From a virus, in IMG/VR virus record IMGVR_UViG_3300044568_002317, positions 1 to 51,122 of that record: DNA of 51,122 nt; one strand, written 5' to 3'. Shown here piece after piece: positions 245 to 24,344 of the stretch. The notes beneath the pieces were generated by a model. The model saw only the letters and a program-made list of their open reading frames with translations, searched no databases and had not been told where the DNA came from. Both the position numbers and the translations under genes were made by a program. How positions within the stretch are numbered: the stretch's first letter is position 1; every line of letters starts with the position of its first letter.

Positions 245-1249
245 TCAAGTGTATTTATGAGCAAGTTGTTCTAAACTGATAATATCATAGGGCTTTTGTC
301 GAAGTTGTTCTTGATTGTGAGCAAACACATCAACGTTGGCAATGAATATCTCGTGCAGTCGTTCCATGTTGGATGCTAACTCTAACAAACATCGGATATA
401 GGCGCAAAATCTAGGTTCGGTATGAATCAGATGTGAATCAACATATTGATCTTCTATATCGTCCCAACTGTAATCTATACCAACTGGTAGTTTCCACCCA
501 TCATTTACTAAAGTTCTATTAAAATGCCTCGGGCCATAGTTCATTACAAATCTTCCCTGTATCAAATGATCATAAGTTTTTTCTGAATATAGCACAGTAG
601 GCCCTTTGCACAATGACTCAATTTGTGCTGATATGTATGTATTGTCAAAATATTTCCGTGCTGGCGGTGTTGCTTGTAACAGTGCAAGGTCTGTTACTCC
701 AGATTCGCTTGGTAAACTTGCGCCGACAGTATGTCCGCTATGATAACCAGAAATGTTTTTTACTGAATGATATAACTGTTTCTTGATTTCAAAATTGTTT
801 TTGCCGTACAAAGAAAGTATAGCCCCTGGACGCCTGGCCAATTCTATAGGCCATTGATTGTAATTTTCAGGATTAAATTGTTTCCATGAGGTCTGCTTGT
901 CAAGATATGCAGATTTGGCCCGATTCCAGTAGAAATTAAAATGCAACACATTTTTTATGCCAGGTATGGGTGTTTTACAAGCTGTTAACAACACAGTTGG
1001 TATGAGTTTTTGATAATACTCAACTAACGCAATGCTATGAAGAGATGGCGTCGGATGAGCGTGAAACATATCATAAAAAACTAATTTTTTTATCGCATGA
1101 GATTTTATATACCGCTTGAGTTCTTTCTCATTGGGCCACCAAAAAGCAACCCATAGTTCAGATGATTGTTGATTGTGAACTATGGGTAACCATTGCTGAC
1201 ATTTAAAAATATTAGGATCGCTACCAGGTAATAGCGCCACTTCATGCAT
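245..1249 (-). CDS. Putative glycosyltransferase-like protein (SEKT type)
   Basis: 334 residues with no signal peptide or membrane segment. I recognise no full family. In the C-terminal half the segment LYSEKTYDHLIQGRFVMNYG resembles the nucleotide-sugar-binding region of GT10-like and phage 'SEKT' proteins, where a Ser-Glu-Lys-Thr is followed by a small helix and a hydrophobic strand. The protein at 6661-7692 has the same arrangement (ISEKTAKAIISKSCFSIYMS), so the two may be distant paralogues. A phage enzyme of this type would transfer a sugar to DNA, protein or cell-surface glycan; the substrate is unknown. ATG start at 1249; no clear ribosome-binding site is visible. It sits between the large 702-residue gene and gp32 on the same strand. 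Confidence 0.4.
   Translation of the reverse strand: MHEVALLPGSDPNIFKCQQWLPIVHNQQSSELWVAFWWPNEKELKRYIKSHAIKKLVFYDMFHAHPTPSLHSIALVEYYQKLIPTVLLTACKTPIPGIKNVLHFNFYWNRAKSAYLDKQTSWKQFNPENYNQWPIELARRPGAILSLYGKNNFEIKKQLYHSVKNISGYHSGHTVGASLPSESGVTDLALLQATPPARKYFDNTYISAQIESLCKGPTVLYSEKTYDHLIQGRFVMNYGPRHFNRTLVNDGWKLPVGIDYSWDDIEDQYVDSHLIHTEPRFCAYIRCLLELASNMERLHEIFIANVDVFAHNQEQLRQKPYDIISLEQLAHKYT
252..259 (-). promoter_or_regulatory. Late-promoter-like box CATAAATA upstream of gp32
   Basis: CATAAATA on the minus strand, one base from the T4 late consensus TATAAATA, inside the last codons of the 245-1249 gene and about 130 bases before gp32. It could drive late gp32 transcription. Because it is also simply part of a coding sequence, support is modest. 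Confidence 0.3.
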
Positions 1250-1263
1250 GATTGCCTATTGTG

Positions 1264-3372
1264 TTATTTTAATAAAGCTAGTGATTTTATTCTTGCCAAT
1301 AGTGCAGTATCAGATTTGCTTTCGTAATAAGCCTCTTGTGGTGCTTCCCCAATCACAGGAGCCATGCCGCCTGCTACAGTGCCCATTTCATACATGCCAC
1401 ATTCGGCTAGGCCGTGTTCTGGGCAGTACTCACCTTCCATGGTTGTATTGCATGAACCTTCCAAAACTGGTGCGCTCAATTCTGGCATGGCTTCAACTGT
1501 GGCAATTGGATCTGCTTCGGGCATGATCATACCGGAGTTGCTTTCAGTAATGCCCAACTCGTCTGCCAAACGGTCTGATATCCATTCATGCGGATCACCG
1601 GTGCGAGCTTTTTTCACTCCATAAGGCATGTCGTCAAAGTAATAGTCATACAGCGCATCAAACAAGTCGTTGTCTAATTCGGCACCGGCTTCAAAGTCAG
1701 CAACTTCTCTGCTGAAACGTTGCAGGATGTGTTCTAGGGTGTGACCAGTGGAGTCTGTGAGCACACTTTCTCGAAGTGGCACGCCAGCATATTTTAGCAT
1801 GGCATTGAGTTCTGTGTTTTCTTCCATTCTACCTATAGCACGGCTGATACCAACTTTGCGATTGGCAATCTTAGGATCTTTTTCAAATCTACCTGGTTTT
1901 GGAAGTCCGCCGGCCACTGCATTAAATGCAACTCTAGCACCTTTCTGAAATCCAGTACCATGACTGCGATCAGCCACATCATCTACTGCTCGGTTTACAT
2001 AGTTGCTGAGTGTGCCGGGACTCAATTCATCCAACTGATCTTCTGCCATGCCTTGTTCAGGAGCCATGCCCGGTGCTTGTTGACCAGCAGCAGGTGCCAC
2101 TGGTTGTTGTTCATCAGCATCAGGTGTAGTATTCAGTTGAATACCAAGTTCTTGCAGTCTAGCTTGCACATCTGTGTCGTCCCAACAGTTAGCACGAGGA
2201 TCTTGTTCAGCCAAATCACCAAGAATGTCAAACAATTTATCATCGCCTATCACATCATACAGTTGTTCTTTGGCATTGGTAGCATCTGGACCAACAATGA
2301 GTTCTTGACTCATGAGTTCATTCAGTTTGGCCTGTGCTTCTGGTGTGTCTGGCAAGGCCCATGTGCCTTCCATAATACCGTTTACCCAGTTTTCAAAAAT
2401 TTGTGCTTCTTTCATAGCGGTTCCTCGTTGTTGTATTTTGGCCAGAGTGGGCAATGCTGCCTCTATTCTAGCATCTAATGTTTGTTCAATAAACATGGTC
2501 TTGAGATCTTCTACTAACGCAGTTTCATCTCCAATGTCTGCCGGCGTCCATGATTCAAAATATTGATTGTATCCGCGGCCTGTGGCCATGTGCTGTAGAT
2601 TTCCGCGCAGTTCCGAATAGTAGTGATGAGCTGTTTCTACCAGTTCTTGTGTGATGCCTTCAAACACTCGCTGTTGACTGGCTCGATTAAATCTGCTTAA
2701 CACAGCCATTTCTGTCACAATCTCGTTGATATGCTGGCCACGAATGTCGTATGGTCTGCCGCCTTGTTTCACATGTTCCAACATGGCTCGGCCACCCGAC
2801 AGTTTCACAAATGGCAGTTTGAACCGTTCGCCATCTACAGTTTCAATAAACAAACTTTCCACATAGCGATAGCGTTTGTCATCTTCGCCAATCATTCGGT
2901 TGTGTTTGATTACCATTCTGGCTTCAGTTTGCTCACCCACATAGCTGATCTTGCGTGTGCCATAGTAGCCTTCAAACAAACCTTCTTTGATAGCTGCCAT
3001 ACCTTGCATGGTATGCTTGAGTTGATTGATGTCTTTGGGACTGAATGTGCCCAGGCCATGGCTGGTAGCAAATTTTGAGATTTCTTCCAAGAATCCCAAG
3101 TGCCGCTCGCTGCCAAGCCAATCCAGCTTGTCCTGGGGATCTTCCATGGTTCTTCCTAGATTGTCGCCAAAAAACATTTGTAGATCGCTTTCATCGCCTA
3201 GTACAATTACCACTGTACCGTAGTTTTTGCCCGAACTAGCAATCCAATCAAATGCAAAAGTTTTGGCTTCTGCAGGTGCAGAATCCTGACCTTGTCCGTC
3301 TGTGTACTTTACTTCAAAGTTTTTAGTGGCCAACAAGTCAGCCAGATCTTGGGAAAGATTTTCAATTGCCAT
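1264..3372 (-). CDS. Large conserved phage protein of unknown function (702 aa)
   Basis: Soluble, acidic 702-residue protein directly downstream of the large terminase. From memory, proteins with the C-terminal signature DALYDYYFDDMPYG and the linker motif DELSPGTLSNYV recur in uncultured aquatic phages, but I know of no assigned function. The N-terminal half looks globular (mixed strand and helix). The middle has a Gln/Ala/Pro-rich linker around residues 415-440. The last 60 residues hold a Cys/His cluster of the form C-x8-C-x2-H-x4-C, which could bind a metal. The start at 3372 (ATG) is about eight bases from a CTAAATA box overlapping the terminase stop codon, with no obvious Shine-Dalgarno. 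Its position beside gp17 suggests a virion or packaging-related role; this is inference from context only. Confidence 0.75.
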   Translation of the reverse strand: MAIENLSQDLADLLATKNFEVKYTDGQGQDSAPAEAKTFAFDWIASSGKNYGTVVIVLGDESDLQMFFGDNLGRTMEDPQDKLDWLGSERHLGFLEEISKFATSHGLGTFSPKDINQLKHTMQGMAAIKEGLFEGYYGTRKISYVGEQTEARMVIKHNRMIGEDDKRYRYVESLFIETVDGERFKLPFVKLSGGRAMLEHVKQGGRPYDIRGQHINEIVTEMAVLSRFNRASQQRVFEGITQELVETAHHYYSELRGNLQHMATGRGYNQYFESWTPADIGDETALVEDLKTMFIEQTLDARIEAALPTLAKIQQRGTAMKEAQIFENWVNGIMEGTWALPDTPEAQAKLNELMSQELIVGPDATNAKEQLYDVIGDDKLFDILGDLAEQDPRANCWDDTDVQARLQELGIQLNTTPDADEQQPVAPAAGQQAPGMAPEQGMAEDQLDELSPGTLSNYVNRAVDDVADRSHGTGFQKGARVAFNAVAGGLPKPGRFEKDPKIANRKVGISRAIGRMEENTELNAMLKYAGVPLRESVLTDSTGHTLEHILQRFSREVADFEAGAELDNDLFDALYDYYFDDMPYGVKKARTGDPHEWISDRLADELGITESNSGMIMPEADPIATVEAMPELSAPVLEGSCNTTMEGEYCPEHGLAECGMYEMGTVAGGMAPVIGEAPQEAYYESKSDTALLARIKSLALLK

Positions 3373-3379
3373 AGTGTGT

Positions 3380-3386
3380 TATTTAG
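3380..3386 (-). promoter_or_regulatory. Late-promoter-like CTAAATA overlapping the terminase stop
   Basis: CTAAATA on the minus strand; its TAA is the stop codon of the large terminase (3385-3383). It lies seven bases before the ATG of the 702-residue gene. One of five boxes in the window built on a stop codon. Confidence 0.4.
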
Positions 3387-4963
3387 CGCATCATTATGAA
3401 TGGAAACGGCTCGACAATCATATCTCCGTGGTCTTTAAGGTGTGTGTCCAAGTCTGAGTGATAGGTCTGCAACAACAACAGCATGCGTACCGCCAGCAAA
3501 CTGGCCATAACCAAATCGTCAGTTTCGCCGGGTTTTGCGGCATAGCTGGTGCCCATGGCCACAAACGTTTTGAGTTCTGAAACCAAGGGTCTTGAGTTGA
3601 TTTTCATACGTCCAGATTCCACTAGAATTTTAAACTTGTTGCAGGCTGTGATTTTGCTTTTGTTTGTGGTATTAAAACCCTTGCGGAATCTGCGCCCTGT
3701 GGTGCCTGTTACTGAGTTATCGCTGAGGAAATATCCTGGAATGTTGTCTTCGCCATATTCTGCTATGCTGATCAAGGCAGCTTCGCCAATGGTGTTGTTT
3801 TCCACTGAGAAGTAGATGCTTTTTTCATCTTGAACTACGGCATGCAGTTCCTTTATAATATCCGCAAGAATTCTAATTTGTGTAGGAATGTCAGTTTTGT
3901 TATGGCGCCATTCAGCAATCTGATCTGTAGTTCTAGCGTCAAACACCTGTATGGCAGCAGGATCGCCACCTGTGCCCAAACTGGGGTCTAGCGCCACAAC
4001 ATACATGCCATCTTTGACAGGAGTTTTATACCATCGTACCTGTCCAGATCTATGTATGGGTTCTGCACCTTCTAAATCCATCAGCTTGATAGGTGCTATT
4101 AGTGTTTCGTCATTGATAACAAATTCACAATCCATTTCTCTGCGAAAACGTTCTTCACCTAGTTGGGCTAGTTGTTCAGAACCCCAGGCATCTCCACGTT
4201 CAGGATGTTCACGCCAGTATGATCTAAATGCACGGAATCCATTAATGCCTAGTTCTGTGGTATTGCCGTGCTCATCTTCACATTTGTTGGCACCTTTCCA
4301 CAAGAACGCAAACTGATCTTCGTCTGAGTTGGGAGTTGATGTGATAATTGCTTTACCACCAGTTGCCAAAGTAGGGCTAATTGAAGTCCAAAACTCTTTG
4401 GCAATAGTAGGTCGCACAAATGCAAATTCGTCAGCGTACAACAAGGATATACTCATACCCCGGCCGGTTGTTTCTGTTGTGGTTTGACTCACAATGCGTG
4501 AGCCATTTTCAAACTCTATCGAGCCTTTGTTGTAGCTAGTAGCACCTGCTCGTATATGATTGGGACACAGTTCATAGGCATAGCGTATGCGTTGCATGAT
4601 CTCCTGTGCGCCTGTGTATTTGTGTGCGGCAATAAGAATGGTACTATCTGGCACAAACTGAGCATACCACAGCAGATATCCTGCAGCTGACGTTGACTTG
4701 CCTGTTTGTCGAGGCATGAGTGATATTGAATATCTGTAATTGTGGTAGGTATGGATCAGGCGCTTTTGATAATCAAACGGATGATACAGCATCTTGCCGC
4801 GTGTGGGATGCTGGATGAAGAAAAAGTTATCCATAAAATACAGCGGGCCTGTAACAGGGTCAGCACACATTGCAAACTCTGTGAGTTCTTGCTCAGTATA
4901 TGTTTCAACCCTGTGTGGCGCTTTAACCAGCACCGTTTCTAAATTACTTTTTAGACCAATCAT
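3383..4963 (-). CDS. 17: Terminase large subunit, gp17-like packaging ATPase/nuclease
   Basis: 526 residues. The motor domain shows a Walker A of the terminase type, PRQTGKST (residues 84-91), a Walker B LLYADE (174-179) with the catalytic acid at its end, and a coupling motif TSTPN (209-213). The RNase H-like nuclease domain begins at ALDPSLGTGGD (about 324-334), giving the first metal-binding Asp. T4 gp17 is 610 residues, so this is a somewhat short homologue. It translocates DNA into the prohead and cuts headful concatemers, working with gp16 and the portal. I place the start at the ATG at 4963, which overlaps the upstream stop as ATGA. A longer frame from 4978 would need a TTG and would overlap further. 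Confident assignment. Confidence 0.96.
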   Translation of the reverse strand: MIGLKSNLETVLVKAPHRVETYTEQELTEFAMCADPVTGPLYFMDNFFFIQHPTRGKMLYHPFDYQKRLIHTYHNYRYSISLMPRQTGKSTSAAGYLLWYAQFVPDSTILIAAHKYTGAQEIMQRIRYAYELCPNHIRAGATSYNKGSIEFENGSRIVSQTTTETTGRGMSISLLYADEFAFVRPTIAKEFWTSISPTLATGGKAIITSTPNSDEDQFAFLWKGANKCEDEHGNTTELGINGFRAFRSYWREHPERGDAWGSEQLAQLGEERFRREMDCEFVINDETLIAPIKLMDLEGAEPIHRSGQVRWYKTPVKDGMYVVALDPSLGTGGDPAAIQVFDARTTDQIAEWRHNKTDIPTQIRILADIIKELHAVVQDEKSIYFSVENNTIGEAALISIAEYGEDNIPGYFLSDNSVTGTTGRRFRKGFNTTNKSKITACNKFKILVESGRMKINSRPLVSELKTFVAMGTSYAAKPGETDDLVMASLLAVRMLLLLQTYHSDLDTHLKDHGDMIVEPFPFIMMR

Positions 4964-5535
4964 CTTGTAGTTATCCAACTATAGCTGCTTATCCGGAATT
5001 GAGTGGTAGGCACTGGGTTTAACATTGCGTGCCATTGTAGTTTTCTGTATCCTTCGGGCTGTAGTCGATTGATCATAATATATCCTGTGTTTGGGTTAAC
5101 CACAAACTGGTGACGTAGTGAGTTTGAGTTTTTATAATGATAGAAAGAAGTGCCTAAATTAATATCACCAATCCAGGTCATTTGCATGGCACCAGGCATT
5201 TCACCATCAGTGTGCATGGCACAAGTAAATCCTGGTTCGTCCAGCCACCAGGCAGTGCCTTGGTAGTTTAACATTCTATATCCAATGGATTGTTCTAATA
5301 CAGGCCAAAGTTGTTGACAACTTTGGTCCCATTCATGATTCCACATCAATGCTGAATTATCTATGCGTCTACGAGGCCAATATTCTTGTCCTTCTTGACG
5401 TTGCCACGGTAGCGTCATCCAGTCAGTAGAAATTATTTTGTCCACCAAAGTTTGTGGAAACACATCTTTAACAAAGAATAAATTATTGTCTTGATCAACT
5501 GGCGTTATTTGCATAGGAATGCCAGTTCTGGCCAT
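4960..5535 (-). CDS. 2OG-Fe(II) oxygenase-like protein
   Basis: 191 residues. A short N-terminal helix region (LFFVKDVFPQTLVDKII) opens like many phage prolyl-hydroxylase-type proteins. The double-stranded beta-helix signature is MHTDGE with H108 and D110, a distal H169 (LQWHAML) and R181 (FRISSYSW) for the 2-oxoglutarate carboxylate. These residues fit the Fe(II) dioxygenase superfamily, which hydroxylates proteins, nucleobases or small molecules. The substrate is unknown. It overlaps the upstream radical SAM gene by 31 bases and couples to the terminase through ATGA. GGAGAG lies about 11 bases before the ATG at 5535; an alternative ATG at 5514 would shorten the overlap. Confidence 0.6.
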   Translation of the reverse strand: MARTGIPMQITPVDQDNNLFFVKDVFPQTLVDKIISTDWMTLPWQRQEGQEYWPRRRIDNSALMWNHEWDQSCQQLWPVLEQSIGYRMLNYQGTAWWLDEPGFTCAMHTDGEMPGAMQMTWIGDINLGTSFYHYKNSNSLRHQFVVNPNTGYIMINRLQPEGYRKLQWHAMLNPVPTTQFRISSYSWITTR

Positions 5536-6653
5536 AGGCGTTGAAACTCTCCATCTTTGTCTGGATGGTACTTGGTCTCGTTGTCATGTATGTGACGCCA
5601 GAAGTCTGTGTCAATTTTGCTGATTTTGCTCTCACTCAATCTGCCACGATAGGTAGCCAATGCTGTGTCAAAGAACTGTTGTTCAGCAGGAGTGGCAATG
5701 TTCATCTCATAGAAACGTTCAATTTCTGCAATGGCTTCCTGTGCAACACCTGCGCCGTGCAAGAATGGATCAAGATATTCAGGCTGAAACAAGTTTTGCC
5801 ACAGCACTGTAGTTCCAGTATCTTCGGCAAACTGTCGTAACTCACAGATGCGTGTGGCGTTATAAATGTTGTATACTGCATGTATACCTCCCCATTGACC
5901 TTGTGTGGTCATGAGATGTTTGATCTTACTCAAGTTTTCTTTGATCAATGACCATGTGGCACCGTGTCGCACATACTCCACTCGCTCACCGGTGTTGTCA
6001 AAACTCATTGACCAGCCAACTCGATTGCGTGTTGATAACTTTTGAAATATTTTATTTGATTCTAGATCCACATTTAAGTTTGTGATCAGTGTGACTATGG
6101 CATCCTTGGGTATGACATCTAGCAGTCGATTATTTTCTGGCAGCAACAAGGGTTCACCACCTACTAAGGCCACTTCGTGTATGTGTTCATAATGTTGTTC
6201 AATGAAGTCGCATACTGAATCATAGTAAGGCCTTGCACCACTCTTAAATGGAATGCCTTTGATGCTGGCCCATTTTGAACTGCATGATTCGCCGCAGTAG
6301 TTGCAACTTAAATTGCAGGTGGTGTTCCAGCGCACATCCACAATCACAGGATAGTGATACTGGTCTCCGGCTGTGGCATAATCAAAGTTGGGATTTACAT
6401 TGTTGTGCCATTGGCGTTCTGAGTCTGCACCAAAGCGTTCGGCTCGCACACAGTTAGAACAATACTCATGCGGTTCTCCCTGGGCCAGACTAGTACGTAT
6501 CTCTGTCATGAGATTACTGTTAAGGATTTGTTCAATGGTTTGGGTATTGAGGTTGCCTAGCATGTTAGGGTTGCCAGCACAGCAGGTTTTTACATCGCCT
6601 CGGGGATTGATATGTAGGCCACGCCACGGAGCAGCACAATAGAAATTACTCAT
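5505..6653 (-). CDS. Radical SAM protein with N-terminal SPASM/twitch-like cysteines
   Basis: 382 residues from the ATG at 6653 (MSNFYCAAPW). The radical SAM 4Fe-4S motif is CNLSCNYC, with C113, C117 and C120, followed by a GGEP motif (VGGEPLLLPE). Before the radical SAM core is a second cysteine set: C6, C24, C25, and C65/C68 in CSNC. It looks like a SPASM or twitch auxiliary-cluster region placed at the N-terminus. Such enzymes cleave S-adenosylmethionine to a 5'-deoxyadenosyl radical and often modify peptides or carbohydrates. The substrate here is unknown. A longer frame to 6746 needs a TTG and overlaps the previous gene heavily, so I reject it. Neighbours are a transferase-like gene upstream and a 2OG-oxygenase-like gene downstream. 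Confidence 0.82.
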   Translation of the reverse strand: MSNFYCAAPWRGLHINPRGDVKTCCAGNPNMLGNLNTQTIEQILNSNLMTEIRTSLAQGEPHEYCSNCVRAERFGADSERQWHNNVNPNFDYATAGDQYHYPVIVDVRWNTTCNLSCNYCGESCSSKWASIKGIPFKSGARPYYDSVCDFIEQHYEHIHEVALVGGEPLLLPENNRLLDVIPKDAIVTLITNLNVDLESNKIFQKLSTRNRVGWSMSFDNTGERVEYVRHGATWSLIKENLSKIKHLMTTQGQWGGIHAVYNIYNATRICELRQFAEDTGTTVLWQNLFQPEYLDPFLHGAGVAQEAIAEIERFYEMNIATPAEQQFFDTALATYRGRLSESKISKIDTDFWRHIHDNETKYHPDKDGEFQRLWPELAFLCK

Positions 6654-6657
6654 ACTG

Positions 6658-6665
6658 TATTTAAA
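6658..6665 (-). promoter_or_regulatory. Late-promoter-like TTTAAATA at the radical SAM start
   Basis: TTTAAATA on the minus strand, four bases before the ATG at 6653. Its TAA is the stop codon of the upstream 6661-7692 gene. It belongs to the TAAATACnGTATGA motif seen at two other places. Confidence 0.35.
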
Positions 6666-7692
6666 GACAGGCGAGTTCTCTCTGTAATTTTGGTTGGTAC
6701 TTGGTGTACCAAGGTCCAAACTCCGGTCCTTTGCTGAACCATTCAAAATTATGATTGATTTTGTATATTTGACTTTGACGATAATCCATAGCTACCGACT
6801 CAGTATCAAACTGTTGACAAATTTGTTTAATAGGTTCAATATTGGTCTCGCTGGCATGATCGGCAAAAAATCGTGGTTCAAATCCCAATTCTTCCAAAAC
6901 ACGATAGCCTGCTTCGGACATGTAAATGCTAAAACAACTTTTACTAATTATGGCTTTGGCTGTTTTTTCACTGATTAGAGTGTTTTCACCCGGATGTGTT
7001 TCTGTTACCACAGCAATTGCTGTATGCCAGGCAGGATGTTCGATGGTATAATCATTGGGAAAATTATCTGGATGTGTAGCTATTTGTGGAGGATATTTTT
7101 TTATTTCGTCGTTTAGATCAAATCTACCTTCAATAAATGCGCCAACTGATCCGTAAGCGTCAAGATTGTACGGGTTTGCAAATCCCACACTGTAGATATC
7201 ACGGTCAGGATCAATTAATTTTTCACTTAACAATGAATGCATCAACCACAATCGATGAGGACTAGGTGCTCTATTAAGACAGCCAATGCGTTTTGATCGG
7301 GCGTGGTGTGTAGGCCAGTTATAAACTATGGCTGCAAACGTTGGATAGTAGATCAATCCCGGAATGTTATCAAACCAATGTTGGCAGCGGCTGCTGAGTA
7401 CAGCAACTTTAGCACCTGGAAAAAAATCTTTAATAAGTGACAAATTATCCACACAATCTTGTGTGGATATCAATATAGGATCCCAACTGGCATCAACAAA
7501 CACATACGTGTCCATAACTGACTGATCTCGTAAAACTTGTAAACTTGCATAAAACTCTGCCCAGGAGTTTCGATCAATCCTAGTGTAAGGAGTGCCGGTT
7601 AACACTATACTGTTGTCTGGCAACATTCTATGGCCATTGTTCAGTCCTTTAATGAGCTGCACATGCGGTGTTACAAAATCAAACACTTTCAA
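6661..7692 (-). CDS. Putative glycosyltransferase-like protein (SEKT type)
   Basis: 343 residues starting MKVFDFVTPHVQLI from a TTG at 7692; an in-frame TAA lies immediately upstream, so no earlier start exists. The C-terminal half carries LISEKTAKAIISKSCFSIYM followed by LEELGFEPRF. From memory this pattern is typical of a widespread phage protein group related to fucosyltransferase-like (GT10) folds: the SEKT region binds the donor and the G-F/Y-x-x-F strand follows. An N-terminal Rossmann-like half is suggested by hydrophobic strands such as YVFVDASWDPILI. Substrate unknown. It lies between a secreted nuclease and the radical SAM/oxygenase pair, which suggests a modification cassette. A shorter ATG start (MLPDNS) is possible. 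Confidence 0.5.
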   Translation of the reverse strand: MKVFDFVTPHVQLIKGLNNGHRMLPDNSIVLTGTPYTRIDRNSWAEFYASLQVLRDQSVMDTYVFVDASWDPILISTQDCVDNLSLIKDFFPGAKVAVLSSRCQHWFDNIPGLIYYPTFAAIVYNWPTHHARSKRIGCLNRAPSPHRLWLMHSLLSEKLIDPDRDIYSVGFANPYNLDAYGSVGAFIEGRFDLNDEIKKYPPQIATHPDNFPNDYTIEHPAWHTAIAVVTETHPGENTLISEKTAKAIISKSCFSIYMSEAGYRVLEELGFEPRFFADHASETNIEPIKQICQQFDTESVAMDYRQSQIYKINHNFEWFSKGPEFGPWYTKYQPKLQRELACL

Positions 7693-7727
7693 TTATTCAG
7701 CCCGTTCGCATTTTTGTTGTTTGGCGT

Positions 7728-8165
7728 TTAGTTACACCAGCTTTGCTTTGCTTCGCCGTAGTATTCGCGGGCAAACCCGTTGGCAATAAGCATTTGACGT
7801 AGACTCTGCCCGTTTAGCAGAACATCTCCCAACACACGACCACCATATTTGTCCCAGTCAATAAGCACAATCTGTCGTTGAGTGGCTTGAGCAACGGCTG
7901 CTTTGGTAAAGGCCGAGGCTGCTTCGCCACGCTGCGCTTCACTGGCACACTGAGCGCGGAATCCTTTTTCAGGAGTGTCAACTCCAAAAACTCTAATACT
8001 GAGTTCTTTCTTGAGTGGTGCAGGCAAAAAGTCTGCCTGGAATGCCACAGTATCACCGTCTATGACTCTGGTGATCACAGCGTCATATGTAACGCCAGGA
8101 CGTTGCTTGGGTTGTGCCATGGCCAGCACAGGCACGATCAGTAAGAGTAATAGTAGTTTTTTCAT
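7728..8165 (-). CDS. Secreted thermonuclease (staphylococcal nuclease family)
   Basis: 145 residues. The first 18 residues, MKKLLLLLLIVPVLAMAQ, form a clear signal peptide with a likely cleavage after AMA. The mature part is an SNase domain: IDGDTV with metal ligand D38, catalytic R58 (IRVFGVDTPE) with D63 and E66, and R110 in KYGGR, which correspond to D21, R35, D40, E43 and R87 of the staphylococcal enzyme. It is a Ca2+-dependent endonuclease of DNA and RNA, predicted to be exported to the periplasm or outside. It ends at a Cys (SWCN) that could pair with C73. No clear ribosome-binding site precedes the ATG. Phage use may be scavenging host DNA or attacking incoming rival DNA; this is speculation. 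Confidence 0.9.
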   Translation of the reverse strand: MKKLLLLLLIVPVLAMAQPKQRPGVTYDAVITRVIDGDTVAFQADFLPAPLKKELSIRVFGVDTPEKGFRAQCASEAQRGEAASAFTKAAVAQATQRQIVLIDWDKYGGRVLGDVLLNGQSLRQMLIANGFAREYYGEAKQSWCN

Positions 8166-8216
8166 ATTAAAATTTGTAGGTGTTATACAATAATTCCATT
8201 TGTATCGGATTGGTCA

Positions 8217-8603
8217 TTATCTAGGATAGCCAGCAAATGCTTTTACAGGGCTAGTATGATTTACCAATGCTGGTTCTAAACTATTTGGAGTACTTATTTG
8301 TATTTTTTTAGCAGGCAAGCCAGACATTGTTAATGCTTGGTCAATAATTGCCCCAACACTGTCATTGAATCCAGCAATCACTGCATCTTCACCAAATGCT
8401 GCTTTGGCACTCCAGGCAGGTATGTTGTTGGTAATACCATCAGTTCCTGTATCACTTCTAGCGCGAGCCATTGCCACACCCAGTCGATAAATTTGATACG
8501 GATCGCTAGATTGTACACCAGGCAACACAAACACATGATTCATAGGGTCTGCTTGCTCAGGCGGCAGTGTTGCTTCTTCGCGAAGAAATTCTCGTGCTCT
8601 CAT
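8217..8603 (-). CDS. Small protein with MRA-x-EF N-terminus, possible internal head protein
   Basis: 128 residues. It opens MRAREFLREEATLPPEQ and ends TSPVKAFAGYPR. The protein at 8600-8968 shares both ends (MRATEFIQES and TSPVKAFQGYPR) but little in the middle, so the two are diverged tandem paralogues. The N-terminus resembles the T4 capsid-targeting sequence MKTYQEFIAEA, which directs internal proteins into the prohead and is cut by protease gp21 after a (I/L)xE motif; here that would be LRE. The middle may be a small globular domain. Its start overlaps the stop of the upstream gene as ATGA, so translation is probably coupled. No family is recognised and the function is unknown. Confidence 0.7.
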   Translation of the reverse strand: MRAREFLREEATLPPEQADPMNHVFVLPGVQSSDPYQIYRLGVAMARARSDTGTDGITNNIPAWSAKAAFGEDAVIAGFNDSVGAIIDQALTMSGLPAKKIQISTPNSLEPALVNHTSPVKAFAGYPR

Positions 8604-8968
8604 CTTGGATAGCCCTGGAATGCCTTGACCGGACTTGTGAGATTCACTCCCGGAAGTTCTTCGCTTTTAAAGTTGCCGTTGTTTAGGTCTTTGTATTCAG
8701 CACCGGCAGCTTTAAATCCTTTGACCAACATTTGTTGTTCTTCTTCTGTGTAAGGATGTGCGCTGCGATCTTTACCAATCCAGGATTCATCATTCATATC
8801 TGGAACAAATGTTCCGTCAGTACATGCCACAGCCATCATCACACGATTTAGTGTGTAAGTGCTGTCAGTTCTGCTGGGGTCAAAAAACAAATTCATTCCA
8901 ACACTTGCATTTTGTTGGCGTTTGGTAATTTTACCTCTTGACTCTTGAATGAATTCCGTGGCTCTCAT
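8600..8968 (-). CDS. Small protein with MRA-x-EF N-terminus, paralogue of its neighbour
   Basis: 122 residues, starting MRATEFIQESRGKITKRQQN and ending LTSPVKAFQGYPR. The first ten residues match the T4 internal-protein targeting pattern, with IQE as the possible gp21 cut site. The segment ITKRQQNASVGMNLFFDPSR and later text read as a small soluble domain; no catalytic motif is visible. The gene starts at 8968 sharing one base with the previous stop (TGATG) and its own stop overlaps the next start (ATGA), placing it in a tightly coupled cluster with the 98- and 58-residue genes. Function unknown; an injected or capsid-internal protein is the main hypothesis. Confidence 0.7.
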   Translation of the reverse strand: MRATEFIQESRGKITKRQQNASVGMNLFFDPSRTDSTYTLNRVMMAVACTDGTFVPDMNDESWIGKDRSAHPYTEEEQQMLVKGFKAAGAEYKDLNNGNFKSEELPGVNLTSPVKAFQGYPR

Positions 8969-9264
8969 CAGACACTACCGTAGCCAATCACACCTGATTG
9001 GGCCGAGCTGGCTGTACCAAGTTCGGAGGCTGTGAAGTTAGCACCTGTGACTGTTAACTTATTTCCAGCACCTACATAAATCTGCGTGGTGCTATTTGGT
9101 GGTACAAGTGGCGCTGCACTCCAAAGATTACCTACGGCAGCAGCCGTGCCCAACGCAGTGACATACACATTATATGTAACCGATGTATTGCCTGTTACAA
9201 TCTCACATTTGTCTGTGTACCAAGTGGCATTGGATGCTGTACTATAAACGTTTGCTTGACTCAT
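8968..9264 (-). CDS. Small beta-rich phage protein of unknown function
   Basis: 98 residues, rich in Thr, Ala, Val and Gly with alternating strand patterns (VTYNVYVTALGTAAAVGNLW, then VPPNSTTQIYVGAGN). It resembles in style the 134-residue protein at 29684-30088, which has a similar VPPTSSIIVI segment, so it may be a small virion decoration or fibre-associated jelly-roll protein. Its start overlaps the stop of the 58-residue gene as ATGA, and it lies in a run of five coupled genes. No catalytic motif is visible. Confidence 0.65.
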   Translation of the reverse strand: MSQANVYSTASNATWYTDKCEIVTGNTSVTYNVYVTALGTAAAVGNLWSAAPLVPPNSTTQIYVGAGNKLTVTGANFTASELGTASSAQSGVIGYGSV

Positions 9265-9437
9265 TTGGCGTCCTTGTTGGGCTGACTGACCACAGGTTGA
9301 AATAGTTCACGAGTTTGATACATCACTCCGGGAATGTCCACAGGTTGTTGTCTCACTGAAGGAATTGACGGAGGTACATATTCATTGGCTTTGCGTTGTG
9401 CCAATTCGGCTGCAATTTCACTGTATGGTGTCATCAT
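9261..9437 (-). CDS. Small protein of 58 residues, unknown function
   Basis: A short frame fills the gap between the 844-residue gene and the next gene. It reads MMTPYSEIAAELAQRKANEY and continues with a Pro/Gln/Val-rich tail ending QPNKDAK. The start (9437) is one base after the stop of the upstream gene, and its stop overlaps the following start as ATGA. This tight coupling on both sides supports it as real. The second ATG at 9434 is equally possible. The tail looks unstructured; no family is recognised. Confidence 0.6.
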   Translation of the reverse strand: MMTPYSEIAAELAQRKANEYVPPSIPSVRQQPVDIPGVMYQTRELFQPVVSQPNKDAK

Positions 9438-9438
9438 T

Positions 9439-11973
9439 TTACCCCTTGTAGGCTTTCCATTGATTGGTCAAAGCAAAAATACTTTCTTCAACTTTTTTCT
9501 CTTTGTCAGCAACAGCTTTTTTCATTGGCTCTTTTTTGTCACCATCTTTGTCCATGTCTAAAAAGTCGGGCTTCTTGGCTTCTTTAATGCCGGCAATGTC
9601 ACGCATGCGGCTCAACATCTGTTCAAAACTTTCTGTCACAGACTCGTCACACTTTTCGGCTTCGGCAAGAGCCATTACTTGCTCTTGTTCTTTTATTGCT
9701 CTCAAGTCATCCATGGCACCATAACTTTTTAATACTTGTTCTAATCTATCTTTATGCTTGAAATCAAGTTGTTTTTGTTGCTCAGCGGACTTTGGTGCTA
9801 GATTTGAACCAATTGATGCATTCCGGTGTGCCTCGACTGCGCTATCTAATTCCTTCTTAAAATCTGGATTCTTAGTAGACAGATAATAAGCAACAGCACG
9901 TTGATAGGCAGGCCTCCAGACATCTTGTTTTTGTTGTTGGGTAGCAGAAGTTGGTGCTGATGTAGATTGCTGAGGGGCAGCTTGTGCAGCACCTGCACCC
10001 AGTGAACCTAGTGCCATTGCACCTGCTAGTCCTGCAGCACCAAGTTTTTCTCTCCAACCTTCTTCTAGCATTTCGTTAGTAACTTCAATACCAGACATTT
10101 CCAGCATCTTGCGAAGTTCACGCTTGAATTGTTCGTCATCTTCGTATGTGTGTTGGCGATCTTCTTGTCCTGCAATCACAGGAACGGTTGTTTGTCCAGT
10201 TGACTTAGGACCGTTCAATCCACCACTATACATCATGGCATCTTCTGTTCCTTCTTGGTCTGTGGGCCAATCAGGATTATTCTCAGCTAGGGCTTCGTCA
10301 ATGTCGCCGCACCCGCAATCGCTCATACCGCAACTGGGACATGGTTCTTCGCCGTGTCCGTGTTCTTGACCCATTTCTTGACCCATTTGATCGCCGCCAC
10401 CTAAGCCTGCATTTTTAAGCAGGCCTGCTAGTTTTAATGCATCTTCGTCTGTAGCAGTGATAGTCAAACTCTTGCCGCCTTCAGTCGAGTCACTCATGTT
10501 CACGCTCATTGATTCAGCAATCATCTTTTCCAATTCACGATTCATTGAATCGTAAATGCCTTTTCCATATGAGAAGCCGCTTGATGCTGTTGGGGTATCT
10601 GTGCCGCCTTGCTCTTTGACTTTCTTAGGCTTGTCTTCTTTTTTGTCTTTCTTCTCGTCGTACTCGATGTCTTTGGTAACTTTCTTGCCGGTTTTTTCGG
10701 CCTTGGCATCTTCTGAGCCACGTTTTTTACCATGGATGCCATCTTTCTTCTTCTCGTACTCAATGTCTTTGGTAACTTTCTTGCCGGCTCGTTCAGCATG
10801 ATTGTCACGCTTGTTTGTGGACTCTTCGCCTACAGCCATTTCATCGTCGCCTTCTTGATTCTGCATGTAGTCGTCCACAGCAGTCATCATACTTTCAATC
10901 TTGGCCAATTTGGATTGTACCCATTCTGGCAAGTTGTCATCATCGCCCAGGATCTTTTCCAAGGCTTGAGCATGACGTACCACAGTCTTGATGCTGTCTT
11001 TTGCCATGTCGCCTTCTTGATCATATTCGCCTTTTTCTGCTGGGTCAAAGTCATTTTCTTTGGTCATTAACTTTGATTTTCCTGATGGTCCTTTGGCGCC
11101 CATCTTGCTGCCAGTTCCTGATGGTCTACCACGGCCACGCTTTTGTGGTTCGGCATCACTGGCATCATCAGCACCTACTGAATTACCTTGGTCGTCTACC
11201 CTGCGAGTTACTTTACGGCCTGTAGCAGTTTGTTCAATGTCGTGTTTGTGACCACGTGTAACAGATCCAACTTTAGGAGCGTCAACACGAGGACGTTTGT
11301 GCGCTGTAAATGCATTATCAGTGCTGTCTTCGTCAGCCACTTGTTTATTACCGCCTTTACGCAACATAGCAAAGTCGTTGGCATCTAGTTTGCCGTTTTT
11401 GTTCATGTCAATTTTCTTTTGCTTTGGGCTCAATGCATTTTTAATAGCTTCAGCAGCCACGTCGCCAATGCGCTCGTCAACTTCTTTCTTAGCGCCTGCA
11501 ATCTTGTCAGCAAAAGTAATTTTGTCTGCAGGTGGTGCCAATGCAGCAAATGACTTCTGCTTGCCTGTCATTGGAGCACCGGCTTCCATTGCACCGGGCT
11601 TTTTGCCTGTTTGTGGCATGCCCACTTTCTTTTGTAAATCTTTGCGCATGGCTTCGTCATCGCCGTGCCCCAATTTTTCAAGACCTTTTCTTGCCATATC
11701 TTTGGCCAAATGACCTACCAACTTGGCTTTGTCTTTAAGACTTTCTTCAACTGTTTGTTCTTCTAGTTGACCGGCCTTCTTCATCTTCTGGAATTGTGCA
11801 CCGGCAATCTTGTTGCCTTTTTCACCGCCGCCAGCTTTCTTAGCCAGTGCTTTGAAGCCTGTTGTGGCATTGTTGTGCTTGCCCATGTCGCGCTCGTTTA
11901 ACTGGCCATGTGTCTTGCTAGGTGTGGCACGAATCTCGTCCAGCTTTTTGTTTAAGTCGTAAAAAAATGTCAT
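9439..11973 (-). CDS. Large modular charged protein with EF-hand-like loops and an AT-hook-like motif
   Basis: 844 residues, very rich in Lys, Glu, Asp and Gly. An EF-hand or dockerin-like Ca2+ loop, DMNKNGKLDANDF, lies at 189-201; a second Asp-rich loop, DMDKDGD, at about 806-812. RGRGRPSG (279-286) is an AT-hook-like DNA-binding motif. A 32-residue unit containing KKVTKDIEY occurs twice in tandem. A Cys/His patch, CPSCGMSDCGCG, follows near residue 555. At about 640-665 is a Gly/Ala-rich hydrophobic segment ending AGAAQAAPQ, which looks like a buried signal peptide. The start MTFFYDLNKKLDEIRATP is, from memory, common in uncultured aquatic phages. Function unknown; a head-internal or ejected DNA-associated protein would fit. 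It is read after AGAGGA, overlapping the upstream stop. Confidence 0.75.
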   Translation of the reverse strand: MTFFYDLNKKLDEIRATPSKTHGQLNERDMGKHNNATTGFKALAKKAGGGEKGNKIAGAQFQKMKKAGQLEEQTVEESLKDKAKLVGHLAKDMARKGLEKLGHGDDEAMRKDLQKKVGMPQTGKKPGAMEAGAPMTGKQKSFAALAPPADKITFADKIAGAKKEVDERIGDVAAEAIKNALSPKQKKIDMNKNGKLDANDFAMLRKGGNKQVADEDSTDNAFTAHKRPRVDAPKVGSVTRGHKHDIEQTATGRKVTRRVDDQGNSVGADDASDAEPQKRGRGRPSGTGSKMGAKGPSGKSKLMTKENDFDPAEKGEYDQEGDMAKDSIKTVVRHAQALEKILGDDDNLPEWVQSKLAKIESMMTAVDDYMQNQEGDDEMAVGEESTNKRDNHAERAGKKVTKDIEYEKKKDGIHGKKRGSEDAKAEKTGKKVTKDIEYDEKKDKKEDKPKKVKEQGGTDTPTASSGFSYGKGIYDSMNRELEKMIAESMSVNMSDSTEGGKSLTITATDEDALKLAGLLKNAGLGGGDQMGQEMGQEHGHGEEPCPSCGMSDCGCGDIDEALAENNPDWPTDQEGTEDAMMYSGGLNGPKSTGQTTVPVIAGQEDRQHTYEDDEQFKRELRKMLEMSGIEVTNEMLEEGWREKLGAAGLAGAMALGSLGAGAAQAAPQQSTSAPTSATQQQKQDVWRPAYQRAVAYYLSTKNPDFKKELDSAVEAHRNASIGSNLAPKSAEQQKQLDFKHKDRLEQVLKSYGAMDDLRAIKEQEQVMALAEAEKCDESVTESFEQMLSRMRDIAGIKEAKKPDFLDMDKDGDKKEPMKKAVADKEKKVEESIFALTNQWKAYKG
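10663..10790 (-). repeat. 96-base tandem repeat inside the 844-residue gene
   Basis: The plus-strand string ATGTCTTTGGTAACTTTCTT begins at 10667 and again at 10763, a period of 96 bases or 32 residues. Each copy encodes GKKVTKDIEY with Lys-rich flanks. The high identity suggests a fairly recent in-frame duplication. Confidence 0.8.
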
Positions 11974-21552: not shown

Positions 21553-22223
21553 TTTATCTTGTTGCGGTCGATCCATGTTCTTAATTTGTTAGCAATCATA
21601 TCATGTCCTAGCTGATTTGGATGTGCATAATTAGGGCGGATGTACTGGTTATTGTCAACATTTGTCAAATGTTCGCCATTGTGATTGGCTGCACCAAACC
21701 AGTCTGCGGCGGTTTCCAGACCTTTTGCCCATATTTTGTCAGTGTTAACCATTGGTAACCATTGTGTATATTTTATCCAACCAGAAAAATAATAGTCATC
21801 AATGTTGTGCAACTTGCACCACTGTTGCAGTGCAGTAATTGCAATACTACTTCTCATGACTGCATTTTTGTCAGAATAAAAATGCAACCAATTTTTCATA
21901 AAAACTTCTTTGGCTTCTTGGTTCCAGTTCTGTCGGTGATGTCCATGAACATTGAAACCTGCATCTGGCGGAAAATACGCTGTGCGATGTGGGTTGGTTA
22001 AAAAAAACACAGCAGTGACTTGATGATCTGTACGATAATGATTTTCAAAATAATTTTGCAATTGTAGAATCATATGCTCGTTACTAGAACCGCCTTGTCC
22101 ATAATTGTAAAATTCATCAAATTCTAGAAGTTGTTTTAATATTTCTCCATAGCGTCGATCAGTTGATTTTAATTCTACACCTTCGGGCCAACTGTCGCCC
22201 AACGTTAATAATACTGTTGTCAT
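21549..22223 (-). CDS. SGNH/GDSL-hydrolase-like protein
   Basis: 224 residues. Block I is LLTLGDSWPEG with the nucleophile S11. YGQGGSSNEHM (41-51) provides the Gly of block II and N48; FLTNPHR gives N77; YAHPNQLGH gives the block V His at 201. These order as in SGNH esterases and lipases, which cleave acyl esters on glycans or lipids. The usual block V acid, three residues before the His, reads Asn (N198) instead of Asp, so activity may be altered. The start overlaps the stop of the upstream radical SAM gene by one base, suggesting paired action. It may act on surface polysaccharide; the substrate is unknown. Confidence 0.65.
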   Translation of the reverse strand: MTTVLLTLGDSWPEGVELKSTDRRYGEILKQLLEFDEFYNYGQGGSSNEHMILQLQNYFENHYRTDHQVTAVFFLTNPHRTAYFPPDAGFNVHGHHRQNWNQEAKEVFMKNWLHFYSDKNAVMRSSIAITALQQWCKLHNIDDYYFSGWIKYTQWLPMVNTDKIWAKGLETAADWFGAANHNGEHLTNVDNNQYIRPNYAHPNQLGHDMIANKLRTWIDRNKIN

Positions 22224-23188
22224 TATTCAAATCCGCTGGTGCTACCAGTCTTTTTTAATGTAGCAAATACCACCGAGTTTTCTTCATCACGAGAAAACTC
22301 AGGACAAAATTTACATTGAGGAATCACTTGGTCGATGTCGTTAAGAAAAGTTACGCCACGATCAGCAAACTGGTCTACCTGCAACGGAGCATAACTTTTT
22401 AATAAATCTCGATCTTGATCTGTGATGTCTAAATGATGTTGAGCATCAAACTCTGGAAACAATGCTACCGGTCCGCATTTATATAAAGATCCTCGTATAA
22501 AGTGATAACATTTAAACATTGCAAACCCACAAGCACTATGCGACTTATCTGGATCACTATTGTACAACGTAAATTTTCCATGGTCGTTCAAATGCACTGC
22601 GGCTCTATAAAAACTGTCATATTCCCATATGGGTATTCTAACATCATTGCTGTCAACAAACGCATGCGAAGCACCAAAGGTCATTGCATTGTCAACATTG
22701 AGTGGATCTGTGTGGTGGTAATATCTAACGTCTCCGTGCAAGAAACTTTTTACTTCTTCAAAACACCGATCAAGATCATTATGATTGTGCAAGCTCACGC
22801 CTATCCAATTTTTAATTCCTGGTTTGTTAGGATCTATTGGGTTAACCAGGCGGTCATACAAGCCAGCAATCTTGTTTAGGCGAGTGCCGTTGGTCAAAAT
22901 CTGTACAGGAATATTCCATAGACCATTAATACCGTCAATCCAATCCAAAATTGTGGGATTGAGCAACGGTTCACCACCCAGTATGGTTACTCGTTGCAGT
23001 CTTACATGCCGTGACCATTCTGTATAAATCTCTTTGTAATCGCTCCATTTTTGATATCCTTTGAAATCAAAATTATTAAAGCGATTACAATTAAAACAAT
23101 TTAGATTACAAACATTGGTGATGTAGAACTCAGTGTTAGCGATGAGTTTGCGTGAGTCGGTTGGATTGTCATCTACTATTTTATACAT
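22223..23188 (-). CDS. Radical SAM protein with C-terminal auxiliary cysteines
   Basis: 321 residues. The radical SAM motif CNLNCFNC has C27, C31 and C34, followed by TILGGEPLLNP (the GGE motif). The second half has cysteines in HSACGFAMFKC, YKCGPVAL and QCKFCPEF, consistent with a SPASM or twitch auxiliary cluster at the usual C-terminal place. It probably generates a 5'-deoxyadenosyl radical to modify an unknown peptide or sugar. It is coupled to the SGNH-like gene. The ATG at 23188 is the 3' end of a 7-bp hairpin downstream of a GTAAATA box; no Shine-Dalgarno is evident. It differs in domain order from the radical SAM protein at 5505-6653. Confidence 0.82.
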   Translation of the reverse strand: MYKIVDDNPTDSRKLIANTEFYITNVCNLNCFNCNRFNNFDFKGYQKWSDYKEIYTEWSRHVRLQRVTILGGEPLLNPTILDWIDGINGLWNIPVQILTNGTRLNKIAGLYDRLVNPIDPNKPGIKNWIGVSLHNHNDLDRCFEEVKSFLHGDVRYYHHTDPLNVDNAMTFGASHAFVDSNDVRIPIWEYDSFYRAAVHLNDHGKFTLYNSDPDKSHSACGFAMFKCYHFIRGSLYKCGPVALFPEFDAQHHLDITDQDRDLLKSYAPLQVDQFADRGVTFLNDIDQVIPQCKFCPEFSRDEENSVVFATLKKTGSTSGFE

Positions 23189-23214
23189 ATTGGACCAGTG
23201 AGGCCAATATTTAC
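23187..23214 (-). promoter_or_regulatory. GTAAATA box with hairpin covering the radical SAM start codon
   Basis: GTAAATA (23214-23208), with TAA as stop of the 377-residue gene, runs into ATATTGG (23210-23204); its complement CCAATAT (23193-23187) overlaps the AUG at 23188. The stem is 7 bp with a 10-base loop. Confidence 0.5.
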
Positions 23215-24344
23215 CAGCTTTTAAGGATGACTAAATTCTCTGTGCCACGGGCATTCCATGCAGTTTCAGTGGTGTTGATATCTTTGAATGCTTTGCGGGC
23301 GGCTGGTTTGCCTGCTCCCACAATACCCTTGAGCTGTTCTGCTGGCTTGCGCAGGGTCTTTTGTACAGTCTCCACAGTTGAAAACCCAATGATTGAGTTG
23401 TTCTTCACAGTGAATGCCTGTGTGTGGCTGTCTGCCACAAGGTGGATGAGCTTGCGTTTTTTGCTGTCGTACAACCATGCTTCTGATTTGTCCACAAGAC
23501 TTGCGGCTGGCTGGCTCTTGAGTTTGAGTTCGGCAAATTCTGCCTGCATCTTAAACTTGGCCGCACGTTTCTCTGGTGGCACCGCCTTGACCTTGCGTGG
23601 TTTGCGTTCTACTTTCTTGATCTGCACATAAGCACCACAGTCATTTATAACTGCTTCACAAAACTTCACAACATTGCGAAGTTGTATTTTGGAAAGATGG
23701 CTGTATGCTTCAACCAATTGTGCATCCTTGCCTTCAATCACTGCATCAAATTCTGAGAGTTTGCGCTTCCAGTTGTCCAAAATTTGGCTGATCATTTGCG
23801 GTGCTACATTAAGCCCACGCATGATTGTAACGGGTTTGAAGTCTGCTGTCAGTTTGGCACCGCTCAACATGAACTCGTCAAACATGCCATCCAGTTCGCC
23901 ATTGCACTCTGACGCTTTTTCGCGCAGGCGGTCCTGGATGTTGGGCTTGGCCACAGCCGGTTCTTCTGTGACTTCTGTGACTTCGGCCTGCTTGCTGTCT
24001 AGTATTTCTCGCAATTGGTTTTGCAATTTGAGTTGTTCTGCATCATGCAATTCCAAGCCCACCATGCTCATGCGGCACAACCAACCTGTGGTCAGTCGAA
24101 TTGCTGAATCTGGAATGCCCTTGAGCAGTCGCACATCTGCCTTGCGGTCATGTGCTTCCAGGTAGTTCACAATCATGTCCCGGGCATCTTTTTTGCCGTA
24201 AAAGTAGTTGTACCAGGAGAATGCTTTGCTCAATCGGCTGGTGCGATACTCTGTGGGCTGGACCTGCCAAGTTGGCTCCATGCCCAAGATGTTGGTGTCA
24301 GAACTGCGGGGATTTAGCAGTTTAATTTTGAATGTGGTGCTCAT
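23211..24344 (-). CDS. Conserved phage protein of unknown function (377 aa)
   Basis: Soluble 377-residue protein. The N-terminal region (MSTTFKIKLLNPRSSDTNIL, then EYRTSRLSKAFSWYNYFYGK) and the C-terminal end (TETAWNARGTENLVILKSW) look strongly constrained. The centre has long charged helices, and a Lys/Arg/Pro-rich stretch near residues 255-275 (KKVERKPRKVKAVPPEKRAA) could bind nucleic acid. From memory similar proteins occur in other T4-like marine phages without a function. It follows two small early-looking genes with sigma-70 promoters, so early or middle expression is likely. AAGGACAC precedes the ATG at 24344. The stop TAA is part of the next gene's TAAATA box. Confidence 0.75.
   Translation of the reverse strand: MSTTFKIKLLNPRSSDTNILGMEPTWQVQPTEYRTSRLSKAFSWYNYFYGKKDARDMIVNYLEAHDRKADVRLLKGIPDSAIRLTTGWLCRMSMVGLELHDAEQLKLQNQLREILDSKQAEVTEVTEEPAVAKPNIQDRLREKASECNGELDGMFDEFMLSGAKLTADFKPVTIMRGLNVAPQMISQILDNWKRKLSEFDAVIEGKDAQLVEAYSHLSKIQLRNVVKFCEAVINDCGAYVQIKKVERKPRKVKAVPPEKRAAKFKMQAEFAELKLKSQPAASLVDKSEAWLYDSKKRKLIHLVADSHTQAFTVKNNSIIGFSTVETVQKTLRKPAEQLKGIVGAGKPAARKAFKDINTTETAWNARGTENLVILKSW

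Follow-up and report, generated by a model that had tools for sequence, protein, structure and literature searches.

Why does a phage carry a run of enzyme genes directly in front of its large terminase gene (terL, product TerL), and do these enzymes work together? This question is raised by a stretch of viral DNA of 51,122 nucleotides, IMG/VR record IMGVR_UViG_3300044568_002317 (the window), in which genes for a transferase-like protein (6661..7692), an N-terminal-twitch radical S-adenosylmethionine (SAM) enzyme (rSAM1, 5505..6653) and a 2-oxoglutarate-Fe(II) (2OG) oxygenase-like protein (4960..5514) lead on the minus strand into terL (3383..4963). A first-pass annotation had described the three as one overlapping run of modification enzymes which might act jointly on a nucleobase, a surface sugar or a short peptide. 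The comparison with related phage loci suggested that the locus is a variable accessory-gene slot, reaching from a nuclease gene to terL in an uncultured jumbo-myophage lineage, and that it belongs to a set of phage tools with which an unusual sugar or glycan is made or decorated, a reading on which our judgement is evenly balanced. A joint pathway of the cassette enzymes is plausible.

The radical SAM class of rSAM1 was confirmed by a score of 213.2 bits against NF033640 (N_Twi_rSAM), which lies above the curated cut-off of 170. Pfam places a SPASM domain at 37-99 of the rSAM1 open reading frame (ORF), ahead of the radical SAM core at 142-278, the latter with 26.9 bits for Radical_SAM, just below the gathering score of 29.5. 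Cysteines C6, C24, C65, C68 and C113-x3-C117-x2-C120 are invariant in 20 diverse sequences (the rSAM1 alignment comprises 33 of 66 sequences), so that the CxxxCxxC motif of the radical SAM core comes after N-terminal twitch/SPASM cysteines. A second twitch radical SAM protein found in the slot of relatives, rSAM2, also scored above the NF033640 cut-off where tested, and both thus resemble the members of a family to which NCBI gives a name without a function. The N-terminal part of a mixed radical SAM profile matches BtrN, which we take to be a twitch dehydrogenase of aminocyclitol synthesis, with an E value of 3e-7; with the rSAM1 relatives alone this match is weak (E 0.03). Among cellular relatives of the radical SAM family, the neighbours of seven loci viewed by eye revealed no consistent partner gene. 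In cultured phages, tblastn at the limits used gave no match for rSAM1, the 2OG protein or the transferase-like protein, and the matches of rSAM2 were to Vibrio phages only, at about 24%. Elsewhere in the window, ORF 22223-23188 (minus strand) encodes a further protein of the radical SAM type, with an E value of 6e-9 for Pfam Radical_SAM and a score under the NF033640 cut-off; it is adjoined by 23211-24344, a conserved protein of unknown function (PHROG 11903).

The 2OG-oxygenase-like class was likewise upheld, by predicted fold and motifs, which together support the assignment of the 191-aa protein to the 2OG-Fe(II) oxygenase-like proteins. H108-T-D110, H169 and R181 (numbering of the 191-aa ORF, 4960-5535) are invariant in 36 sequences, namely 35 of 37 listed rows plus the window, with L001 (the window again) and the cut L095 omitted. 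The AlphaFold2 (AF2) model has a mean predicted local distance difference test (pLDDT) score of 92, and all 50 structures listed by the fold search are 2OG oxygenases with the double-stranded beta-helix (Z 13.6-15.9). The top matches were PasI (15.9), OGFOD1 (15.4), PolD (15.2) and the Pseudomonas putida P4H (14.7), and PHD2 is also among the structural neighbours; since Z scores within 1 count as ties, no single subfamily is picked out. The protein thus shares the fold and the HxD...H...R residues with oxygenases of the P4H/PolD/PasI type, whereas sequence identity is only about 10% and none of the 36 members has a credible Pfam match (single-member matches have E 0.09 or worse, to unrelated families). 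Also, the window ORF matched no family in Pfam, PHROGs or NCBIfam, and a sequence search of solved structures with the 2OG profile gave no credible match. The missing Pfam match leaves membership of the superfamily intact, as many true members of the fold also lack one. Among viral structures the best match, with 38% identity, was to an uncharacterized protein from an uncultured Caudovirales phage.

The proposed glycosyl transfer did not find the same backing. The 343-aa product of 6661-7692 has no match in Pfam, PHROGs or NCBIfam, and hence no match to a curated glycosyltransferase family; its AF2 model is poor (pLDDT 49.7), and the fold search returned no PDB match at E <= 0.001. It does align with a profile of 45 phage relatives (A9; hhalign probability 98.7, E 4.5e-16, 246 columns), whereas an unrelated control reached a probability of 1.0 in the same comparison. 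This group, the TEK family, carries the signature TEK...GF.TF..DESYD...HN; it was assembled from viral contigs (41 of 60 ORFs plus four proteins of a group labelled c3) and is widespread among them, with at least 506 of 600 matched stretches confirmed. The 45 members scanned gave no PHROG match, one stray Pfam match and no glycosyltransferase family, and when the transferase-like, c3 and A9 profiles were compared by sequence with solved structures, no credible match emerged. Of 13 related contigs, 2 contain a member of the transferase-like family proper at E <= 0.001. Going by these alignments, the protein appears to be a member of an undescribed phage family, and glycosyl transfer is putative. 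A possible resemblance of the TEK motif to GT10 was tried and dropped: the GT10 search matched none of 10 genomes, and the controls were silent as well.

All three genes are real and under purifying selection, and do not reflect chance reading frames. The ratios of nonsynonymous to synonymous change (dN/dS) against near relatives, which are rough since synonymous differences are high, were about 0.044 for rSAM1 and 0.044-0.053 for TerL, about 0.10-0.13 for the 2OG gene and 0.13-0.14 for the transferase-like gene. The coordinates of the first-pass annotation were borne out by the sequence, as was the ATGA (4960..4963) in which the 2OG stop overlaps the terL start, with two starts shifted. The rSAM1 start is most likely ATG 6653 instead of TTG 6746, because the first methionine of the aligned homologues falls there, and that of the 2OG gene is most likely ATG 5514 instead of 5535, because the homologues L178, L059, L096 and L065 begin at that methionine. 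After this correction rSAM1 and the 2OG gene overlap by 10 nt, and this junction and that of the 2OG gene with terL are the only overlapping ones; the transferase-like stop (6661) is separated from the rSAM1 start by a 7-nt gap. The TTG start of the transferase-like gene is also present in 5 of 9 homologues. Within 3300-9500 no terminator-like site was found (mean of 5.7 in shuffles), and promoter-like matches were commoner than in shuffles (21 versus 12.9, sd 4.2), so promoters may lie inside the run. There was no Rfam match in 3000-9500.

How constant is this arrangement? The fractions given here describe near relatives, as the relative sets are the best 80 of 189 stretches for rSAM1 and the best 80 of 406 for TerL. 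Downstream of rSAM1, TerL was found in 77 of the 80 rSAM1 loci, and the other three (L028, L050 and L076) end before TerL. For the slot census, 138 loci selected for rSAM1 and TerL were cut to 73 by rSAM1 similarity, with the window uncounted. Between rSAM1 and TerL, 32 of these 73 loci hold the 2OG gene, 22 hold rSAM2 and 44 hold a gene labelled SGNH1. None of the three occurs in 23 loci, SGNH1 alone in 13 and the 2OG gene alone in 6; all three stand together in 13, the 2OG gene with SGNH1 in 9 and rSAM2 with SGNH1 in 5, and a long form with an NAD epimerase makes up the other 4. The best NCBIfam models for this epimerase are GDP-fucose synthase and GalE, all below cut-off. The SGNH1 label goes back to a motif noticed on visual inspection and to weak matches with GDSL-type esterases in the PDB (E 0.006 and 0.03); the best PDB row (E 0.001) is a different hydrolase, NtdB, and Pfam gave nothing credible (alignment of 28 of 47 sequences). 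Two or more different slot genes are present in 32 loci, and all but one of these (L142) keep the same gene order; the resulting 31 of 32 is the informative count, since the 72 of 73 for all loci includes those with one or no slot gene. Furthermore, rSAM2 is always accompanied by SGNH1 (22/22), and, with TerL starts placed by alignment, 59 of 73 loci show an overlap between the final cassette gene and TerL, which measures 4 nt in 19 of them. A nuclease lies within 2.5 kb upstream in 54 of the 57 loci that have more than 1.5 kb of upstream sequence, and a transferase-like gene in 9 of the 57; seven of these nine also have the 2OG gene and all nine have SGNH1. At the nuclease position two non-homologous genes stand in for each other in what looks like a functional swap: 40 of the 57 loci have an SNase and 14 have Endonuclease_NS. 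Just before the nuclease, many relatives carry a gene absent from the window (cluster u4, L002:3623-4231 and relatives), whose product has a constant N-terminus (MANPPPPY...) and a variable remainder, resembling a variable fibre or decoration protein.

Co-occurrence across phages, the check that the first-pass annotation had named, gave a divided answer. Raw Fisher tests associate the 2OG gene with rSAM2 (p 2.4e-4) and with SGNH1 (1.6e-3), rSAM2 with SGNH1 (9e-7), and the transferase-like gene with the 2OG gene (0.023) and SGNH1 (0.009), and not significantly with rSAM2 (0.12). On the TerL tree, the independent pairs were not significant for the three combinations tried. The slot is moreover clade-limited. 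The nearest cultured match of the window TerL, at 52.8%, is in the Pseudomonas phage PA5oct group, and of the best 80 loci anchored on the PA5oct TerL, 66 extend more than 1.3 kb upstream and none of these has rSAM1 above 55% identity; two PA5oct-type loci (L292 and L309) have radical SAM matches near 25%. PA5oct and the Sinorhizobium phage Phosso have no NF033640 protein over the cut-off and no radical SAM gene annotated beside TerL. When the TerL of a distant member, L063, served as the anchor (best 80 loci), rSAM1 was present above the same limit in 28 of 67, several others matching at 40-55%, and in loci without rSAM1 the nuclease is often directly before TerL.

The link to sugar chemistry comes from larger gene clusters away from TerL. 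The 13 related contigs have 2-21 NF033640 matches each. Over the cut-off there are 16 (including one gene with an internal stop), 10, 9 and 9 in the four contigs above 340 kb (about 350 kb; G006, G004, G003 and G005, respectively), and several of these genes form tandem clusters in the jumbo-phage contigs. Both the location beside TerL and the 9-16 copies per jumbo contig are findings of the present analysis. Stretches of G003, G006 and G013 hold clusters in which NodU-type carbamoyltransferase and amidinotransferase-like genes are joined by genes for TEK-family proteins; a DegT aminotransferase and an NAD epimerase are also present in those of G003 and G013. These labels are Pfam-tested in G003, the carbamoyltransferase and DegT of G013 score below NCBIfam cut-offs, and the rest were assigned by eye. 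The amidinotransferase label follows from 29% identity to an annotated glycine amidinotransferase of cyanophage S-SCSM2R, with no match in Pfam or NCBIfam; in that phage, the gene is grouped with KdsA, KdsB, glycosyltransferases and 2OG genes. The 2OG-family gene occurs in 10 related contigs, in 8 of them at the TerL slot, in G013 inside the large radical SAM/carbamoyltransferase/aminotransferase cluster and in G005 beside the tandem radical SAM cluster.

A comparison of 76 of the best 80 TEK-family loci (about 4 kb flanks) with 80 control loci agreed with this. Carbamoyltransferase was found in 29 versus 0 loci, DegT in 13 versus 0, amidinotransferase-like genes in 12 versus 0, epimerase in 9 versus 0, twitch radical SAM in 25 versus 4 and SGNH1 in 16 versus 4. 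The controls are TerL neighbourhoods, so that specificity is measured against structural regions and not against all phage accessory regions. Four A9 loci (L407-L410), which represent the TerL slot itself, were dropped before counting, and L423 is the source contig of the seeds. The larger clusters likely name the substrate class, a sugar. Since relatives of all three cassette genes stand away from TerL in such sugar-type clusters, the surface sugar is favoured among the substrates first suggested and the nucleobase disfavoured.

For substrate, order of steps, timing and target we infer the following scheme. Among near relatives rSAM1 is the most regular occupant of the slot and would provide the regular step, and the 2OG gene, a second twitch radical SAM gene, the SGNH-like gene, the transferase-like gene and sometimes a sugar-nucleotide epimerase are gained or lost around it. 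The radical SAM enzyme would activate an inert C-H position by oxidation, epimerisation or coupling, the 2OG enzyme might then hydroxylate, and the TEK-family protein might transfer the unit, the latter two as optional steps. Given that packaging and structural genes surround the cassette, its product probably has a late role, on the virion or the cell surface. DegT, amidinotransferase, carbamoyltransferase and twitch radical SAM genes together recall aminocyclitol pathways. A more specific version would be an aminoglycoside-like pathway, in which twitch radical SAM dehydrogenases or epimerases, DegT, amidinotransferase, O-carbamoyltransferase, 2OG and TEK proteins yield a guanidinylated, carbamoylated aminosugar on the virion or host surface, the TerL slot does lineage-specific finishing and the TEK proteins are a new transferase class; we consider this version quite unlikely.

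Several observations weigh against a sugar toolkit. Besides the non-significant independent pairs, the transferase-like family has neither a solved nor a credible Pfam relative, the 2OG profile is not enriched near the TEK family (3/76 versus 4/80 control loci), and a TEK-family member also occurs in 14 of the 80 control loci. Furthermore, these counts come from TEK-family loci without de-replication, and the cluster that supplied the seed proteins itself contains members of the family. It might be that the slot is simply a permissive insertion site between nuclease and TerL for enzymes with different jobs and no joint pathway. The TerL tree (72 rows including the window, obtained quickly; 20 of its 69 inner branches are starred) requires at least 13, 12, 17 and 5 state changes for the 2OG gene, rSAM2, SGNH1 and the transferase-like gene, respectively, which fits such unconnected cargo, as do the 23 loci with rSAM1 alone before TerL, the many more distant TerL loci without rSAM1 above 55% identity and the fact that the exact trio of the window, without SGNH1 or rSAM2, was unseen in the other loci of the census. 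However, the single gene order, the strict pairing of rSAM2 with SGNH1 and the renewed association of related genes in larger clusters speak against it, and we regard this explanation as possible but doubtful.

Another reading takes a virion protein as the target, which rSAM1 and the 2OG enzyme would alter by, for example, hydroxylation and radical cross-linking and to which the transferase would add a sugar. This draws on two further points against a sugar substrate: the 2OG fold is close to prolyl hydroxylases, with OGFOD1, the Pseudomonas P4H and PHD2 as neighbours, and peptide-modifying enzymes (YydG 1e-7, SkfB 4e-6) fit the radical SAM core no less well. The location among structural genes and a conserved C-terminal motif in two small proteins encoded upstream would also agree with it. 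The SPASM domain of peptide maturases is usually C-terminal, though, and the SPASM-like part of rSAM1 is N-terminal. Moreover, where rSAM1 and TerL are direct neighbours a precursor gene would not fit between them (short ORFs were not searched); on the other side, many loci have approximately 10-40 nt from the nuclease stop to rSAM1, a distance that assumes an rSAM1 length of 1150 nt. Modification of a protein or peptide seems unlikely to us. The gene classes also recall known DNA hypermodification sets, and the window encodes a T4-gp1-like deoxynucleotide monophosphate kinase (PF21448), so that hydroxylation, a radical step and glycosylation of a nucleobase of the phage DNA could be considered. 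Yet a thymidylate-synthase-type gene was found in 0 of 13 related contigs, which may be incomplete, versus 9 of 14 control genomes, and QueC in 0 of these 13 versus 12 of 14 controls, with other routes not searched. TET/JBP (PF12851) matched none of the 13 contigs and also no control genome. We therefore hold nucleobase hypermodification to be very improbable.

The first-pass annotation knew of no such described phage set, and no description of a radical SAM/2OG slot beside the terminase was found in the accessible portions of the open-licence literature; related clusters have been published, though. The Campylobacter phages CP220 and CPt10 encode 11-12 radical SAM proteins per genome and exchangeable five-gene clusters with radical SAM and putative glycine amidinotransferase genes, and in 2010 it was called highly unusual for a phage to have ten or more such enzymes (PMC2853527). 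The clustering of several radical SAM genes with an amidinotransferase-like gene is shared with the jumbo-phage contigs, whereas a TerL slot, 2OG genes and TEK-family proteins are not mentioned in the parts of that paper available to us (PMC2853527). No Campylobacter phage was among the tblastn matches listed for our queries. In pelagimyophages, radical SAM cassettes are exchanged in a host-recognition region that also holds glycosyltransferases, and there are T4-like environmental genomes rich in radical SAM genes, one with 12 (PMC7029224, PMC5332604); these belong to another phage group and location, and the available parts of the sources mention no terminase link. Moraphage has been described as a separate lineage, in a paper whose main text lacks the word "radical" (PMC12619734; further literature: PMC3322345, PMC12398825). 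In the literature found, no function has been assigned to phage radical SAM sets of ten or more. In this context, the overlapping conserved slot opens a way into phage radical SAM function through two or three enzymes that can be tested, and if the product is indeed a virion or surface glycan, it would point to a new kind of phage chemistry directed at host receptors or defences.

The borders of the slot in the window are an SNase-type nuclease upstream (7728..8165, minus strand, PF00565), with an N-terminus that looks signal-peptide-like by eye, and TerL downstream (PHROG 36964, E 3.6e-114). Beyond TerL follow, on the same strand, a virion-structural PHROG match (1264-3372; PHROG 13484, E 1.3e-8) and a probable second member of the transferase-like superfamily (245..1249), so that the order of transcription is nuclease, transferase-like, rSAM1, 2OG, TerL, 1264-3372 and 245-1249. 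The last ORF matched A9 over the C-terminal signature with a probability of 90.3 (E 1.5e-6), weaker than 6661-7692, and the family of the latter directly with a probability of 2.6. Further along the minus strand, 34145-44836 is a single reading frame of 3563 aa. The two small proteins upstream of the nuclease (8217-8603 and 8600-8968, minus strand) are adjacent and related, with a common MRA.EF start and an SPVKAF.GYPR end, and are possible virion proteins or modification targets. In related loci, 50 and 16 ORFs of the two small-protein types have the strict form of this ending, and most of the rows listed show looser versions of it.

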